Below, one piece after another: positions 34,536-40,266 of a stretch of 40,966 nt of DNA. The notes under the pieces are model-generated. The model made no database searches, was not told where the DNA came from, and worked only from the letters and a program-made list of their open reading frames with translations. The DNA is from a virus. Location of the stretch: positions 1-40,966 of IMG/VR virus record IMGVR_UViG_3300031840_000210; one strand, 5' to 3'. Each line of letters begins with the position of its first letter. The first letter of the stretch is position 1. The position numbers and the translations under genes were made by a program.

Positions 34536-34576
34536 AAAAAAAAAGGCGATAACTACTAATTAAAGTAGCTATCGCC
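34536..34576 (-). terminator. Rho-independent terminator of the ribozyme operon
   Basis: On the minus strand GGCGATAGCTACT, loop TTAATT, AGTAGTTATCGCC, then nine T: a 13-bp hairpin with one mismatch or wobble. It closes the leftward ribozyme operon about 205 bases after its last gene. Confidence 0.88.
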
Positions 34577-34780
34577 CATGACAATTTTTCGTGTAAGTTT
34601 GTCAGACTTACTGCTATTCAAATTAATTGCCTGTTATTTATCGTTAGCATTTATTATTTATTTTGCTTGGCACTCGCACTCTAGCAACTGGCAAGTCTAG
34701 TTTTTGTTTTCAAGAGCCAAACTAACAGACTCATGCAATTTCAGTTATTTTATTTTATGTCGCATAACTGGGAACAACTC
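34577..34780 (-). other. 3' untranslated region of the ribozyme operon
   Basis: 204 bases between the last gene's stop and the terminator. No gene. A segment on the minus strand with GCAAAATAAATAATAAATGC and TAACAGG resembles part of the loop-III insert of the ribozyme at 37398-37647, and GTAAGT-CTGACAA-ACTTAC is a small hairpin. UGACAA/UUGUCA could form a helix near 34577-34607. The region is probably structured RNA. Confidence 0.45.
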
Positions 34781-34933
34781 TCAAGATCGACAATCATTTT
34801 CAATTTCTGATAGCCATTTATCAAAGTCTGCTTGTAATTGACTAGGCATATTAGCAAGTAAGACTACTAATGCTGGACTATCACTCCACTCTACTAAAAT
34901 TTGTGTAGCAACAATTTTTTTATTCTCTTCCAT
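34781..34933 (-). CDS. Small acidic protein, last gene of ribozyme operon, 50 aa
   Basis: A 50-residue frame with a strong ribosome site (AGGAGG, four bases before ATG 34933). The product is MEENKKIVATQILVEWSDSP then ALVVLLANMPSQLQADFDKW: an N-terminal helix or strand and a C-terminal amphipathic helix. Unknown family. A hammerhead ribozyme (34962-35029) lies 29 bases upstream, so its message should begin with a processed 5' end. Confidence 0.65.
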   Translation of the reverse strand: MEENKKIVATQILVEWSDSPALVVLLANMPSQLQADFDKWLSEIENDCRS

Positions 34934-34961
34934 AAAACCTCCTATTTTTTATGAATTTATT

Positions 34962-35029
34962 TAAGTTTCTGTTTCGCCTATTTTTAGGCTCATCAGTGAA
35001 AAACACCCATTTTTCAGACAAAAACTCAG
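34962..35029 (-). ncRNA. Hammerhead ribozyme HHR1, type III
   Basis: Minus strand, 5' to 3': stem III strand UGAGUUUUUG, then UC (cleavage after C at 35017), stem I hairpin UGAAAAA-UGGGUG-UUUUUCA (7 perfect bp), core CUGAUGA, stem II GCCUA-AAAA-UAGGC, core GAAA, stem III strand CAGAAACUUA (10 bp, three wobbles). All conserved core bases are present. It lies after the VWA gene and before the 50-residue gene. Cleavage leaves the ribozyme on the 5' end of the downstream message. Confidence 0.9.
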
Positions 35030-35070
35030 ATTTCGACCTCTCAGAATCCTCTCTATTGCATTAAGACGAT

Positions 35071-35110
35071 AAGGGTAAGGGTCTAGCATAGGCTAGATTA
35101 CCCTACCCTT
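35071..35110 (-). other. Long GC-rich hairpin after the VWA gene
   Basis: On the minus strand AAGGGTAGGGTAATCTAGC, loop CTAT, GCTAGACCCTTACCCTT pair over about 16 bp with one internal bulge (TAA against C) and one wobble. No T run follows, so it is not a classic terminator. It begins 15 bases after the VWA stop and stands upstream of HHR1. It could protect the 3' end of the upstream message or attenuate transcription. Confidence 0.7.
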
Positions 35111-35125
35111 AAATCGAATCAGACG

Positions 35126-36382
35126 TTAGTGAAACTCAGAAACATTGACGTATACGTTCTCTCCAAAAGGAAATTTAGGGTCATACTCATAACCATTATG
35201 AGTTATCGCCCAAATTACAGGAACGCTTGGCTCTACTTTTGCATCCACTTCGCCATAAGCATCAGTGAAATAAATAAAGGCACATACATCATCAACATCA
35301 TCTGAATGGTCATTAAAGAGATTAAAAGGAGGGTCAAAATCTGTTCCTCCTCCACCTCTTACCTCCAGTTCAATATTTTCACCCATTGAGAGATCAAATA
35401 TATCCCACCATTCACCCTCGCTATTTTTTCTTACAGTAGTGTCGCAATAGCAAACTCTTACTTTATCAATATTGCAAGATTCACATATTGCCTGTAATTC
35501 CTCAGAAAAAATGTTGAGTTCAAATTGTGAAACTGAACCACTGGTATCAATAGCAACTGCAATTTCCCCACCCTCATTAGAACGTATCTTGCTAGGTAAA
35601 TTAATACCCCTCCAAGCATGACGTTTATTCAGTCTTGACCATGATTGATCTTTTAGGGTCATTGAAGTTAGTAAATCAGATAACAAGTCTTTCCAGTTAA
35701 GAGTTCCACCCTTAACAGCATCAACTCTTCCAGTCATTGAGGAAGTTCCACTCAGACTGGCGATCTTATCAGCGAAAAACACTTGCGATCTGATAGCATT
35801 AGACATTTCTTCCTTTTCAGATTCATTCAGAGGTTTACCCTCTTCATTCACTGCATCCCATACCTCACCTATAAGTTTAGGTATGTCTGAATACTTATCA
35901 TCACTTGATGATTGTGAATTGCTATCTGAATCATCAGAATTGCCATTTGCACTATTGCACTCATTTATTGCTTGTTGCAAAGCATCATCATTAGTATCAA
36001 GTTCTCGATAGACTTGTTCAGCAGTCCATTTACGATACTTAGAATTAAATAATCCACCTTGAGGTAAATCCATGCCTAGATCAATTTTGATATAAGCATT
36101 GATTACATAATCAGTAGCTACATTCCATAGTTCGTGATTACGTTTACCTCGTCTAAGTGGATGTTCCCATACAACGTGCATAGATTCATGGATAAGGACA
36201 CACTCTATTTCTTTATCTGTTATCTCTTTAACAAACTTGGGATTCCAGAGTATCTCTTTTCCATTGGTAGCCATAGTGTCGCATTTATCAGTTTCTACTA
36301 ATTCAAGATTAAGTAGCATTGATGCAATTCCTACATCATGTTTCATTAATCTTGCTCTTGCTTGTAAAACTCTATCAGTCAT
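35126..36382 (-). CDS. Metallopeptidase-like/VWA protein, DUF2201 type, 418 aa
   Basis: N-terminal putative metallopeptidase domain with HESMH (65-69) and VATDYVINAYI; Asn/Ser/Asp-rich linker (about 135-165); C-terminal VWA-like domain with a MIDAS motif DTSGS and GGGGTDFDPPF, then FIYFTDAYGE. This is the DUF2201 architecture, found beside MoxR-type AAA ATPases in bacteria and phages (N4-like phages carry an ATPase/VWA pair). The pair is thought to act as a metal-dependent protein remodelling machine; the client is unknown. ATG 36382 chosen: GGTGG lies upstream, and the start overlaps the previous stop by 8 bases (ATGACTGA). A GTG at 36391 is possible. Confidence 0.85.
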   Translation of the reverse strand: MTDRVLQARARLMKHDVGIASMLLNLELVETDKCDTMATNGKEILWNPKFVKEITDKEIECVLIHESMHVVWEHPLRRGKRNHELWNVATDYVINAYIKIDLGMDLPQGGLFNSKYRKWTAEQVYRELDTNDDALQQAINECNSANGNSDDSDSNSQSSSDDKYSDIPKLIGEVWDAVNEEGKPLNESEKEEMSNAIRSQVFFADKIASLSGTSSMTGRVDAVKGGTLNWKDLLSDLLTSMTLKDQSWSRLNKRHAWRGINLPSKIRSNEGGEIAVAIDTSGSVSQFELNIFSEELQAICESCNIDKVRVCYCDTTVRKNSEGEWWDIFDLSMGENIELEVRGGGGTDFDPPFNLFNDHSDDVDDVCAFIYFTDAYGEVDAKVEPSVPVIWAITHNGYEYDPKFPFGENVYVNVSEFH

Positions 36383-37343
36383 CTTTACCACCTAGTTTTT
36401 TCATTAATCCACCTTTCAATGGGTCAATGGCTTTATCTAGATCATCAGCAACTTTTTTACGTTTTGCATCTCCAATATCAGTCTCATCTCGAAGAGAATC
36501 AATACTGTTAATGGTAGACAAAACAGCTACTAGACTTTGATGAGCATTAGCTATATCAGAGTCATTGCCTAATATGTCTTGATTGACGTTAGGTATAACT
36601 TCAACTGCTTTTCGCAATTTGTCGAAACTAGAATCTTTAAAAAATCCACCCTGTTTATTAGTAGGGTCATAAGATTTAAGCTTCTCTGATATATGCTCAA
36701 CTTGTTCTACTAGAGCATCAACAGTGGTCTGAAAGATTGTCTTAACATTTTTGCTAAGTCTCTTTTCAGCATCCTGTTCGATACGTTTTCGCAAGTCAGC
36801 AGATACGTTTAATCTGATATCGTTGCTATAGCTAGGTATTAAAGAAATCTCAAAATCAAATTTGAATTTATCTTTAATATCATCCACTGGAGGATAATCA
36901 CCCATATTGAAAGCATGACCTAAAACGCCTTTAGCATCATCAATCATCTTGGGGTAGTTCTTACAAAACTCATCAACCTCTTTAAAGAAGTCTTGCCTTG
37001 CTTGATCTACTGCCTTCTGCAAATTGTCTAATTGACTATTTGGGCATAATCTCCACCCACTAACGACCTTGTTATCATCATCCGAGGAATTATCATCCCA
37101 AGGCAAAGTCAGTGGATAGTACCTATCATTTCGCACTTTGTTAATGATTCGTCTAAAGTATTTATTAGCATTGAATCCAACTAAATGCTTGGCAACGTGC
37201 AACATAGATTGATCACTAGTATTAGTAATGTCAGCTAGGCTATCACGAAGTGATTTATCAGTTTTAATGCCACTCCAAAACTTAGTAGTAAGTCTTACCA
37301 AAGTAGCATTTTCACTTAACGTATTAGTATTTTCATTTTTCAT
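36375..37343 (-). CDS. DUF3150-like coiled-coil partner protein, 322 aa
   Basis: Helical 322-residue protein with long coiled coils (LDNLQKAVDQARQDFFKEVDEF, VDALVEQVEHISEKLKSYDP). Position between a MoxR ATPase and a VWA protein, size and composition match the DUF3150-type protein of this triad. It probably bridges ATPase and VWA protein. The overlap of its end with the VWA gene is the only place in this operon with no intergenic gap, and the only junction with no hammerhead ribozyme. The ribosome site AGGAGG precedes ATG 37343. Confidence 0.72.
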   Translation of the reverse strand: MKNENTNTLSENATLVRLTTKFWSGIKTDKSLRDSLADITNTSDQSMLHVAKHLVGFNANKYFRRIINKVRNDRYYPLTLPWDDNSSDDDNKVVSGWRLCPNSQLDNLQKAVDQARQDFFKEVDEFCKNYPKMIDDAKGVLGHAFNMGDYPPVDDIKDKFKFDFEISLIPSYSNDIRLNVSADLRKRIEQDAEKRLSKNVKTIFQTTVDALVEQVEHISEKLKSYDPTNKQGGFFKDSSFDKLRKAVEVIPNVNQDILGNDSDIANAHQSLVAVLSTINSIDSLRDETDIGDAKRKKVADDLDKAIDPLKGGLMKKLGGKDD

Positions 37344-37397
37344 AAAACCTCCTAGAAAAATATATACTGGTTAATAATATTTCCTATCATTAGGAAA

Positions 37398-37647
37398 CAC
37401 CTAGACTAGAGAGTAGTTAGCGTAAAATTTAAAAGTCAGTTCCTTTTATTTAACATATTGTTTTATCCTGTTAGGGCATTTAATATTTATTTTGCCCTGT
37501 ATCACTGGTTGTCATTAAAGGTAGCCACTTCCCACCTTAACTTTTAAATCAATACATAACCAACAAGAAAACTAAAATGCTTAATTGCAATTCAGCGTAT
37601 CTTTACTCTCCAGTTTCGCCTAAATTTCATAGGCTCTTCAGTAGGTT
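37398..37647 (-). ncRNA. Hammerhead ribozyme HHR2, type I, with 188-nt insert in loop III
   Basis: Minus strand: stem I strand ACCUA directly after the MoxR stop, core CUGAAGA, stem II GCCUA-UGAAAUU-UAGGC, core GAAA, stem III CUGGAGAGUA (37613-37604), 188-nt loop, stem III partner UACUCUCUAG (37415-37406, 10 bp with one wobble), UC with cleavage after 37404, stem I strand UAGGU. The insert has its own 9-bp outer helix (UUUAAAAGU with ACUUUUAAA). No gene longer than 11 codons fits in the insert. The ribozyme stays on the 3' end of the upstream message. Confidence 0.82.
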
Positions 37648-38697
37648 TTAATACTCTAAATCTTGATGCTCAACTTTAAATTTTGCATAGACTGAAGTAT
37701 CAATCAATTCACTTCTCCTAGTAATAGATTGTCTTACAAAAAACAAACTAAACTCTGGAGTAGCGAATTTCTGAACATAGGCAAGAGCATTTTCAAAATA
37801 ATCTACAACTAGAGATTCTTTTGCACTCTTGATTACATCCACTAAGGCAACAGCAGTGGCAAAACAAAGTCCTACTTTGTCAACGACTTCCACGTCTTTA
37901 CCACTTACTATGTCGCTTAGATTTGGAACATCATCCATTAGTGAAATGAAGTTAGTAAATTCAATTGCTTGAATCTCGCCAACATCACATTCAGCTATTT
38001 TTTGGATGAGTTCTTTAGGTGGATTGGTTTTCAATGTATCACTCAATCTCGACCATGCCCTAGGACTTGGTTGAGGAGTAGTGATCTTGGCATCAAAGTC
38101 ATTAAGAAATTGAGGTTGAAAGTTCAGATAACCTACTACCCTACTATCAACGTCATTCTCAATTGCCCACTTATCCCAATCTTGAAAATCATGCTCAAAA
38201 TTAATCAATGAGCATCTTCCAATAACATGACTAGGAAGTTTGTTAGAACCAGCACGATCACTCGCCCTGTTTCCAGCACATACCATTTTCCACCCTTTAG
38301 GCAAAACATATTCACCTAAACGCTTTTCATAGATCAATTGACCCACTACTGCTTGAACGCTTGGATGTGCTTGGGCATACTCATCAAAAAATAAGATACC
38401 CTCACCACTCTTAGGAAGATTGCCTAGGAAGGCTCTCTTTTGTCCTCCCTCATCATCTATATAAGGAAGTCCACCAAGATCAACTGATTCATACAACGAA
38501 AGTCTAAAATCAATAAATCCAAACTCTTTTGACTTAGGATTAATGTTATCAACGACTATCTCTCTATCATCAGCTAACTCAGTAGCCAATTGCCTAACTA
38601 CAGCAGATTTACCAACACCAGTTCCACCTAGTAGAAAAGGCGTGTTTCCACCACCTAAAACAGATTTCATAATCTGCAATGCTTGACTTGGTTTCAT
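37648..38697 (-). CDS. MoxR-type AAA+ ATPase, 349 aa
   Basis: AAA+ domain with Walker A GGTGVGKS (24-31), Walker B ILFFDE (101-106) and sensor-1 AGNRASD, plus the MoxR-like beta insert (LSLYESVDLGGLPYI). MoxR ATPases act with VWA proteins on metal insertion or complex assembly. ATG 38697 was chosen because GGAGGG lies seven bases upstream; ATG 38712, five codons earlier, has none and would lie on a hairpin. The upstream gap holds HHR3 plus a hairpin (GATTCACT / GGTGAATC) whose loop contains the AT-palindrome repeat. Confidence 0.9.
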   Translation of the reverse strand: MKPSQALQIMKSVLGGGNTPFLLGGTGVGKSAVVRQLATELADDREIVVDNINPKSKEFGFIDFRLSLYESVDLGGLPYIDDEGGQKRAFLGNLPKSGEGILFFDEYAQAHPSVQAVVGQLIYEKRLGEYVLPKGWKMVCAGNRASDRAGSNKLPSHVIGRCSLINFEHDFQDWDKWAIENDVDSRVVGYLNFQPQFLNDFDAKITTPQPSPRAWSRLSDTLKTNPPKELIQKIAECDVGEIQAIEFTNFISLMDDVPNLSDIVSGKDVEVVDKVGLCFATAVALVDVIKSAKESLVVDYFENALAYVQKFATPEFSLFFVRQSITRRSELIDTSVYAKFKVEHQDLEY

Positions 38698-38770
38698 AAT
38701 AATTCCCTCCATGAAACAAAGTTAGTAAAAAAGATTCACCAGTCAATAATAAATATTTTCCAGTGAATCC

Positions 38771-38834
38771 ACCTAGACTAGATCAAGTCTCCTCAATCTA
38801 GTTTCGCAAGAATCTCACTCGCTCTTCAGTAGGT
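38771..38834 (-). ncRNA. Hammerhead ribozyme HHR3, type I, compact
   Basis: Minus strand: stop codon UAA of the 90-residue gene, then stem I ACCUA, core CUGAAGA, stem II GCGAG-UGAGAUU-CUUGC, core GAAA, stem III CUAGAU-UGAGGAGACUUG-AUCUAG (6 perfect bp), UC with cleavage between 38776 and 38775, stem I UAGGU. Complete 64-nt ribozyme with every core base present. The upstream message ends in the ribozyme. Confidence 0.92.
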
Positions 38835-39107
38835 TTATTGATTCGCTAATGGCACTGCTTTTTTATAAGCATCTTCCCAAGTTAAATTAGGAACATTAGA
38901 TTCAAGTACATTAATAAAATGATAAGCATCATTCTTGTATTTAAAATCATTTATAAAATGGGCAACTCCCTTTCCATTAGATAAAACAACTAAGGTCAAC
39001 AGTCTCCATTTATAAGAACCAGTGATATTAGGTCTAAATAAAATATAGTGATCGCCACTCTTTAAACCCTCGATATAAACTCCCTTCTTTTTAAAGAATT
39101 TATCCAT
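38835..39107 (-). CDS. Hypothetical protein, 90 aa
   Basis: A 90-residue protein: DKFFKKKGVYIEGLKSGDHY, ILFRPNITGSYKWRLLTLVV, a helix NDAYHFINVLESN and a C-terminal WEDAYKKAVPL. A small alpha/beta domain of unknown function. AGGAGG precedes ATG 39107. HHR4 lies upstream and HHR3 begins at its stop codon, so it should sit on its own processed message. Confidence 0.7.
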   Translation of the reverse strand: MDKFFKKKGVYIEGLKSGDHYILFRPNITGSYKWRLLTLVVLSNGKGVAHFINDFKYKNDAYHFINVLESNVPNLTWEDAYKKAVPLANQ

Positions 39108-39135
39108 AATAAATACCTCCTAGTATTTAATAATT

Positions 39136-39202
39136 ACCTAGACTAAACCCTAAATAATTAGGGTCTAGTTTCGCCTGTATTTCAAAGGCTCGTCAGTAGG
39201 TT
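39136..39202 (-). ncRNA. Hammerhead ribozyme HHR4, type I
   Basis: Minus strand: stem I ACCUA, core CUGACGA, stem II GCCU-UUGAAAUAC-AGGC, core GAAA, stem III CUAGACCCUAA-UUAU-UUAGGGUUUAG (11 bp, one wobble), UC with cleavage between 39141 and 39140, stem I UAGGU. All core bases are present. It lies between the 143-residue gene and the 90-residue gene. Confidence 0.92.
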
Positions 39203-39211
39203 AAATTGCTA

Positions 39212-39643
39212 TTACCATGAAGTAATCGCGGTAAGCTTGGCAATTGGCTCATCTAAAAATAGATCATTGTTTACTTCTCTCAATGTATAAACCTTGCTTG
39301 GGTCTATCTCCATGCAAGTGGTGTTGATGTAAAGATATTGATTACCTTTAGATTGTTTCAAGTAAACAGCATCACTTTTAAACAGTTCATAAAATAAAGT
39401 GTTCAATCTCTCTCTCGTTGTAACTGTATCCCACCCACACATTGAAAAACATAAGTGAATATTTTTACTTAAATTAAAGTCCGGATGATTTTTCTCCCAC
39501 CATGCAATTTTATTGTCATGCAGATAGATTCCCATTTCTCCATTACTCACCCATTCAGATACAGGGCAAACTCTGGAATTACCTATACTTTTATTTTTGT
39601 TATTAATAAACGCTTTCGCAATTTCTACAGATATTTTTCTCAT
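39212..39643 (-). CDS. Hypothetical protein, 143 aa
   Basis: Alpha/beta protein (RKISVEIAKAFINNKNKSIGNSRVCPVSEWV, GIYLHDNKIAWWEKN, HLCFSMCGWDTVTTRERLN, QYLYINTTCMEIDP). I recognise the pattern vaguely from small proteins of marine phages, of unknown role. ATG 39643 was chosen: GGAGG is eight bases upstream, while the TTG further up overlaps the ribosome site. That ribosome site is the strand that pairs with the CCUCC upstream of HHR5. Confidence 0.7.
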   Translation of the reverse strand: MRKISVEIAKAFINNKNKSIGNSRVCPVSEWVSNGEMGIYLHDNKIAWWEKNHPDFNLSKNIHLCFSMCGWDTVTTRERLNTLFYELFKSDAVYLKQSKGNQYLYINTTCMEIDPSKVYTLREVNNDLFLDEPIAKLTAITSW

Positions 39644-39650
39644 AAATAAA

Positions 39651-39724
39651 ACCTCCAAGTTTTATGTTTCTTGAATCCCATTGTGGGATTCTCTTCAGCA
39701 CGTTAGTTCGTGGACATAGGAGGG
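39651..39724 (-). ncRNA. Hammerhead ribozyme HHR5, type III, pairing with the ribosome site
   Basis: Minus strand: CCUCC, stem III UAUG, UC with cleavage between 39713 and 39712, stem I CACG-AACUAA-CGUG, core CUGAAGA, stem II GAAUCCC-ACAAU-GGGAUUC, AA, GAAA, stem III CAUA, bulge, GGAGG. The last GGAGG is the ribosome site of the 39643 gene and pairs with CCUCC that follows the previous stop. Two extra A between stem II and GAAA depart from the consensus; HHR6 shares them. Confidence 0.7.
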
Positions 39725-39727
39725 AAA

Positions 39728-39949
39728 TTAATCCCCCCTCTCTTTTAAAATATAATCAATAACATTAACTACAGTTTTAAAAGTTTTAAGCATAGGAAAA
39801 CCACTTTCATAATTAATTGTTTCTCCTCTATCCTCTCTCTGTTTAATATTCTCTAATAACATATTTTTATGTTTAGTTAGACGATCAATAGACCATTCAG
39901 AAAAAGTCTCATAATAAAAATCAAATACAGATTGTTGATTTATTTCCAT
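39728..39949 (-). CDS. Small hypothetical protein, first gene of ribozyme operon, 73 aa
   Basis: A 73-residue, Glu/Lys-rich helical protein (SVFDFYYETFSEWSIDRLTKHKNMLLENIKQRED, then FPMLKTFKTVVNVIDYILKE). No family recognised. The ribosome site TTGGAGG lies eight bases before ATG 39949 and is paired in the HHR6 fold. It is the first gene after the leader. Confidence 0.7.
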   Translation of the reverse strand: MEINQQSVFDFYYETFSEWSIDRLTKHKNMLLENIKQREDRGETINYESGFPMLKTFKTVVNVIDYILKERGD

Positions 39950-39957
39950 AATTCATA

Positions 39958-40027
39958 CCTCCAAGTATGTTTCTTGAATCCCAAAATAGGATTCTCTTCA
40001 GCTTGTTAATTCAAGGACACTGGAGGT
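39958..40027 (-). ncRNA. Hammerhead ribozyme HHR6, type III, pairing with the ribosome site
   Basis: Minus strand: ACCUCCA, stem III GUG, UC with cleavage between 40016 and 40015, stem I CUUG-AAUUAA-CAAG, core CUGAAGA, stem II GAAUCCU-AUUUU-GGGAUUC, AA, GAAA, stem III CAU, ACU bulge, UGGAGGU. The last seven bases contain the ribosome site of the 39949 gene. Stem I differs from HHR5 at two pairs, both compensated. It shares with HHR5 two extra A before GAAA. Confidence 0.72.
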
Positions 40028-40207
40028 TGTGTCGGTAGTTCTTACTCTTCCCTAGTTCCAACTGTTTCAGCTATCGCCTAATTAGGTTGATGTTCAAGAG
40101 GAATTTTATTCCCTTAAAGAATCTCAGAGAGATTCACCCACGCCCATTTGTTTTAAGTCAAGGTCTCGTTCCAACGACTACTGGCTTTATATTTCACCAA
40201 TTCAAGT
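40028..40207 (-). other. Structured 5' leader of the ribozyme operon
   Basis: About 180 bases between the promoter candidate and HHR6, without a gene. On the minus strand it holds hairpins GAATCTC-TCT-GAGATTC, GGAAT-AAA-ATTCC and AGCTG-AAA-CAGTT, and the sequence GTTGGAAC twice (in CGTTGGAACG and in AGTTGGAACT). The repeated motif in two hairpin-like settings suggests a folded RNA, possibly a regulatory or aptamer-like domain. Confidence 0.5.
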
Positions 40208-40236
40208 ATTTAAACAGATTACTGCATCATTGTCTA
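40208..40236 (-). promoter_or_regulatory. Candidate promoter of the ribozyme operon
   Basis: On the minus strand TAGACA (40236-40231), 17-base spacer ending in TGT, and TTAAAT (40213-40208) give an extended -10 promoter. It lies in the divergent gap between the small terminase (starting 40267) and the leftward operon, the only gap upstream of it. Confidence 0.45.
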
Positions 40237-40266
40237 ATCATATTTGTCTATTTATTTGCTATCTAA

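Follow-up and report, generated by a model that had tools for sequence, protein, structure and literature searches.

The question raised by this locus is whether the long message of a viral operon can be divided by ribozymes of its own. The window, that is, the whole stretch of DNA analysed here, is the IMG/VR virus record IMGVR_UViG_3300031840_000210 of 40,966 bases. Within it, a leftward operon extends from about 40.2 to 34.55 kb, beginning with a leader beside the divergent terminase small subunit gene and ending at an intrinsic terminator of 14 pairs and a run of T (34544..34577, minus strand). An earlier note on this DNA placed six minus-strand hammerhead ribozymes in the operon, with left ends at 39958, 39651, 39136, 38771, 37398 and 34962, and all six were found as placed. 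We consider it very likely that the operon transcript is self-cut into separate messages, and set out herein the evidence for this reading and for its rivals.

All parts of the operon lie on the minus strand. The structured leader RNA (40016..40240), upstream of gene 1 and aligned across seven relatives, is followed by hammerhead 1 (39967..40020), a type III copy with the loop AAUUAA in stem I and AA before GAAA, whose predicted cleavage point is 40016^40015. Gene 1 (39728..39949), encoding an unknown protein of 73 aa, has its Shine-Dalgarno (SD) sequence in the hairpin loop CATAC-TTGGAG-GTATG. Hammerhead 2 (39663..39718; type III with an AA insertion; cleavage at 39713^39712) lies between it and gene 2 (39212..39643), whose product of 143 aa is Kyanoviridae Gp96-like (PF23790). 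Next come hammerhead 3 (39136..39201; type I; 39141^39140) and gene 3 (38835..39107; 90 aa, unknown), with its SD sequence in the hairpin loop TAAATAC-TAGGAG-GTATTTA. Hammerhead 4 (38771..38834; type I; 38776^38775) adjoins the gene 3 stop codon and precedes the gene for a MoxR/CobS-like AAA ATPase (37648..38712; PHROG 1297). Hammerhead 5 (37399..37646; type I; 37404^37403) starts 1 nt past the ATPase stop codon, and its stem III loop is a large domain of more than 180 nt. The genes for a DUF3150 protein (36375..37343) and a DUF2201 metallopeptidase-like/VWA protein (35126..36391) then overlap, with no ribozyme at their junction, and are followed by hammerhead 6 (34962..35028; type III; 35017^35016) and a last small gene of 50 aa (34781..34933). 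Thus, the claim that every gapped junction carries a hammerhead holds for the window operon, as does the claim that the DUF3150/VWA pair forms its only ribozyme-free junction. The RNA ends predicted by the earlier note (40015, 39712, 39140, 38775, 37403 and 35016) are identical to the recomputed cleavage points.

One transcript presumably crosses the whole operon. A promoter scan returned promoter-like matches more rarely than in shuffled sequence, and neither a tRNA nor a tmRNA was found. The motif TTWACTGGTNAA, allowing at most one mismatch, occurs at 19 sites in the window against 3.9 expected, and also in the intergenic regions of relatives; it is possibly a promoter or a protein-binding site. 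For the VWA protein (35126-36391, minus strand), the best PHROG is labelled HNH endonuclease; this label looks wrong, as Pfam finds DUF2201 metallopeptidase-like and VWA-like domains.

A descriptor comprising the core, three stems and a UH cleavage site, with a score cut-off of at least 13.5, matched the window at exactly six motifs, all on the transcribed strand; 200 shuffled windows gave a mean of 0.095 matches and a maximum of 1. In all six, stems I and III meet at the UH cleavage site, and the cleavage triplet is GUC; GUU, GUA, AUA and AUC also occur among relatives. Hammerheads 1, 2 and 6 (40001, 39698 and 34996), with stem I closed, are of type III, and hammerheads 3, 4 and 5 (39196, 38829 and 37641), with stem III closed, are of type I. 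The elements first read from the letters (CUGANGA, stem II, GAAA and GUC) are indeed present six times over, but in hammerheads 1 and 2 the two bases AA are inserted between stem II and GAAA, so these two cores are not canonical; in hammerheads 3-6, stem II leads to G12 without an insertion. One natural hammerhead variant was impaired by an insertion at another place in the core (PMC3088659). At each of the six sites the hammerhead fold is the minimum free energy structure or lies within 4.5 kcal/mol of it, and for the uncut gene 1/2 site with its flanks an alternative fold is favoured by 4.5 kcal/mol. The loops AAYUAA, UGUGUR and UGARAU recur among the hammerheads.

Rfam covariance models, by which the earlier note had proposed to check the motifs, gave no hammerhead match at the gathering threshold in the window, but did give matches below it. 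RF00008 matched hammerhead 6 (34966-35024) with 41.4 bits (E=2.8e-8; gathering score 48.5 bits) and, with a shifted register, 37608-37697 with 33.8 bits; its best score among relatives, 47.5 bits in L041, is still below gathering, and it has no match to hammerheads 1 and 2. RAGATH-1-hammerhead gave 27.4 bits for the type I copy at 39136 and 25.9 bits for that at 38771 (gathering score 56.3). Besides hammerheads, no named Rfam family was found in the window region or in the leader of L114. The window hammerheads are new to Rfam. The purpose-built model R1 scores hammerhead 1 at 100 bits, having been built with hammerhead 1 included.

Hammerheads 1 and 2 belong to a subclass marked by AAYUAA as the loop of stem I and by a conserved AA that separates stem II from GAAA. 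It is represented by 26 distinct homologues, some in apparently unrelated phages (e.g., in a 190-kb record). Compensatory changes were present among aligned homologues both of this type III subclass and of type I. In the 26 AA-insertion sequences, 338/338 cells are paired and 44 are changed on both sides; stems I and II covary, and the scored 3 bp of stem III are invariant. The 20 type I sequences have 99.2% of cells paired, with 55 cells at nine pairs changed on both sides. For either alignment, such double-sided changes were matched by 0/500 shuffles, counts that are not probabilities since the rows are related, and slid controls collapsed. These three-helix statistics leave aside the anti-SD pairing described below, the SD side of which is ribosome-constrained. 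A plus-strand site at 34218-34275 matches the AA-subclass model weakly, with 16.8 bits (E 0.014) and the catalytic core unmatched; a similar match is present in the L005 record.

The failure to reach an Rfam gathering score anywhere in the window might suggest that these are chance motifs, or DNA- or protein-level features that merely resemble hammerheads. The shuffled windows, the covariation, the absence of the motifs elsewhere in the contigs and the RF00008 E value of 2.8e-8 all speak against this, and we give it practically no credence; the comparative sequence data already refute it.

Relatives were collected via the ATPase (28 loci) and via two ribozyme patterns, and junctions were surveyed in 26 related operons, with ATPase identity down to 55%. 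In these operons, which are not mutually independent, a hammerhead is present at 92 of the 103 internal gene junctions that have a gap and at none of the 43 tight ones. By eye, five of the eleven missed junctions have hammerheads (one with a stem III loop of more than 300 nt), one has a degenerate copy without A9, and five are apparent gene-call artefacts. In the contigs that hold these operons, 110 hammerhead motifs lie within the operons and one elsewhere, just beyond the operon limit that was set. The rule extends to many distant relatives, so that these viruses probably divide a long message into single-gene messages without recourse to a host enzyme. The junction between the ATPase and DUF3150 genes is particularly telling: it carries a type I ribozyme in the clade of the window, a type III ribozyme in L016 and L011, and a different type I ribozyme in L026, and in L029 the genes overlap and no hammerhead is present. 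To us, the changes of type at one junction are the strongest argument that the cut there is selected.

Among named phages, the ATPase has relatives only at less than 60% identity (about 27-34% in the records listed), and a search for DUF3150 homologues found none, so that the lineage is an uncultured one; blastn of named phages and genome contigs returned neither a close relative nor a similar ribozyme. Several further observations were made in the collected sequences. At about 5870-5900 in L027, in the junction before the ATPase gene, a type I hammerhead-like site has the broken core CTGACGT and has lost A9; it is possibly a decayed ribozyme. Extra hairpins between A9 and stem II are present in type III copies of L011 (6210), L012 (3764), L016 (9719), L022 (2807 and 5423) and L033 (2836), and could be regulatory domains or inactivating insertions. 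Type III hammerheads also occur shortly before start codons in other phages (L064, L066, L079, L082, L086, L091, L103, L111 and L100), their stem I loops again being AAUUAA or UGUGUR; the 190-kb record has two AA-subclass copies.

Positions relative to genes were determined for 96 unique ribozymes. Measured from the upstream stop codon, type I copies begin at a median distance of 0 nt; type III copies end 13-38 nt before the next ATG. Like the motifs, the compensatory changes and the restriction to gapped junctions, this rule of permutation and position is a computed result. From the geometry, cleavage of a type I copy would leave the ribozyme on the 3' end of the upstream message, and cleavage of a type III copy would leave it on the 5' end of the downstream message, so that each ribozyme would be anchored to the message that keeps it. 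The opposite anchoring of two permutations, like the pairing of stem III with SD sequences, is absent from the earlier note. It suggests one reason for the existence of both permutations in nature, namely the choice of the message that retains the ribozyme.

These distances also bear on whether the hammerheads have spread among phage genes as parasitic or recombination modules, neutral for expression or without effect on it, their positions being tolerated insertion sites. Such modules would agree with the turnover of flanking genes between relatives in which the ribozymes recur, and with a clustering near phage genes for which the literature gives no known reason (PMC10085705). However, this operon alone carries the motifs in the scanned contigs, a ribozyme was retained at one junction in spite of changes of type, type I copies keep a constant distance from the stop codon and type III copies from the start codon, and the helices contain compensatory changes. 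We therefore regard spread of this kind as a very improbable explanation.

Self-processing is the best reading because position, covariation, near-complete junction coverage and the type changes in relatives all fit it. In this scheme, a leftward transcript from about 40.2 to 34.55 kb would be cut co-transcriptionally by the six hammerheads into the leader RNA, four single-gene messages (genes 1-3 and the ATPase), the DUF3150-VWA pair and a last small message. The earlier expectation of single-gene messages would therefore hold in the main but not throughout, as the DUF3150-VWA message would be bicistronic. The permutation would decide which product retains the ribozyme: a type I copy would persist as the structured 3' end of its message, terminated by a 2',3'-cyclic phosphate, and a type III copy as a structured 5'-OH leader. 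Bypass of host RNases and different stabilities of the messages may follow. Cleavage, the fate of the products and any effect on translation are what we infer from this design.

An effect on translation is suggested by the first two sites. Upstream of the cut at site 1, a hairpin GACAC-AACCUCCA-GUGUC holds an anti-SD sequence in its loop, and its last base is the C of the cleavage site. This strand likewise contributes to stem III, and its CCUCC can pair with the downstream SD sequence. The uncut site 1 RNA of 96 nt is predicted to fold as a hammerhead with the SD sequence paired to the anti-SD, and the separate products are predicted to have CCUCC in one loop and the SD sequence in another. 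At site 2, CCCUCC can pair with the SD sequence of gene 2 or with GGGGGG at the end of gene 1; as a speculation, a ribosome terminating at the last codons of gene 1 might help hammerhead 2 to form. Across relatives, the arms of the leader hairpin are ACAGU/ACUGU, ACAAU/AUUGU, ACAC/GUGU and GACU/AGUC, and in L124 the cleavage-site base changes together with its partner, from G-C to A-U. An arm-swap test of this hairpin was not discriminating, as 174 of 392 swaps still pair; because similar arms blunt that test, the hairpin rests on its recurrence and on the change in L124. The same CCUCC hairpin is found in leaders bearing a different ribozyme subclass. The leader as a whole (40016-40240, minus strand) is a conserved structured RNA whose predicted fold has nine pairs changed on both sides in seven relatives; it matches no Rfam family. 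After hammerheads generally, SD sequences lie in hairpin loops with arms of at least 5 bp in 40% of 65 contexts, compared with 3% in shuffles.

Since stem III can pair with the downstream SD sequence at these two sites, cleavage may free translation. In the leader and at the gene 1/2 site, the upstream CCUCC would join stem III via the downstream SD sequence and, after the cut, refold on its own side, leaving the SD sequence in a hairpin loop, so that cutting would also license translation. That the gene becomes translatable only once the message is cut, with release of the leader RNA, is a tentative proposal that we find somewhat doubtful. If it were true, the anti-SD hairpin of the freed leader would trap the 5' product and could have effects on further messages; in combination with the stop-anchored type I copies, this would amount to an RNA-only programme of operon processing.

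A different weighting would make the ribozymes mainly translational switches or 5'-UTR regulators, acting through slow or ligand-responsive cleavage or through SD sequestration, with single messages as a by-product. Such a role would agree with the anti-SD pairing at sites 1 and 2 and the hairpins that compete with it, with the SD hairpins after hammerheads and with the extra domains of some ribozymes (a large stem III loop, hairpins beside stem II), but type I copies lie at stop codons, where they give a short new 5' end with no SD pairing seen, and most copies lack an extra domain. As the main function, regulation of this kind seems unlikely.

The stem III loop of hammerhead 5 contains, at 37420-37600 (minus strand), a conserved domain with the motif GCAAAATAAATANTAAATGC...GATAAA, of which a second copy lies at 34647-34666 (minus strand), past the last gene and ahead of the terminator. 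Hairpins near the motif have paired changes in close relatives (GGGC/GCCC versus GAGC/GCTC). The domain has no Rfam match and was found in close relatives only. It is conceivable that the ribozymes serve to mature small non-coding RNAs, the leader with its anti-SD hairpin and this loop domain being the functional products, as the structured, conserved leader and the recurrence of the loop-domain motif at 34647-34666 might suggest. This would account for at most two of the six sites, however, and the ribozyme at the junction of the loop domain is kept in distant relatives that lack the domain; we think it quite improbable. Processing of the operon transcript remains the preferred reading.

What phage-associated self-cleaving ribozymes do has been an open question since 2011, and a 2023 paper still called the reason for phage hammerhead associations unknown (PMC10085705). 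A quantitative rule, with ribozymes at nearly all gapped and no tight junctions and with permutation tied to stop or start codons, argues for mRNA processing and means that one cloned operon would suffice to test it. In the literature searched, drawn mostly from outside subscription journals, no near-complete punctuation of junctions, permutation rule or SD pairing by stem III was found; these features and the AA-insertion subclass appear to be new.

The statement in the earlier note that hammerheads are known in phage genomes singly was wrong, as prophage clusters were published in 2011. With respect to Rfam, hammerhead 6 and some homologues match Hammerhead_3 (RF00008) with E values of 1e-7 to 1e-9, all below gathering, and RAGATH-1-hammerhead (RF03152) has the same type I core layout, the upstream hairpin of that model being poorly matched here. 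HHphage of haloviruses HF1/HF2 is alike in that it closely precedes the first gene of a polycistronic transcript, for which a 5' end has been mapped near the cleavage site (PMC3088659). It is one ribozyme, with an insertion beside stem I and C3, in a high-salt setting, whereas the insertion in the present hammerheads 1 and 2 separates stem II from G12 and is accompanied by anti-SD pairing. A close parallel is provided by Perreault et al. (2011), who described clustered hammerheads flanking single prophage genes, suggested that these divide a transcript into single-gene mRNAs, and observed that three tandem arrays cleaved in vitro and that one did so in E. coli (PMC3088659). In those clusters (Clostridium scindens, Azorhizobium and the Agrobacterium ardA arrays), several type I/II/III hammerheads likewise flank genes on one transcript. 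Their cleavage was shown, whereas here the motifs are predicted and the single transcript is presumed. On the other hand, the ribozymes described here occupy almost all gapped junctions in an operon of seven genes, and do so across a phage lineage; they involve other genes, accompany stop codons as type I and start codons as type III, and can pair with SD sequences.
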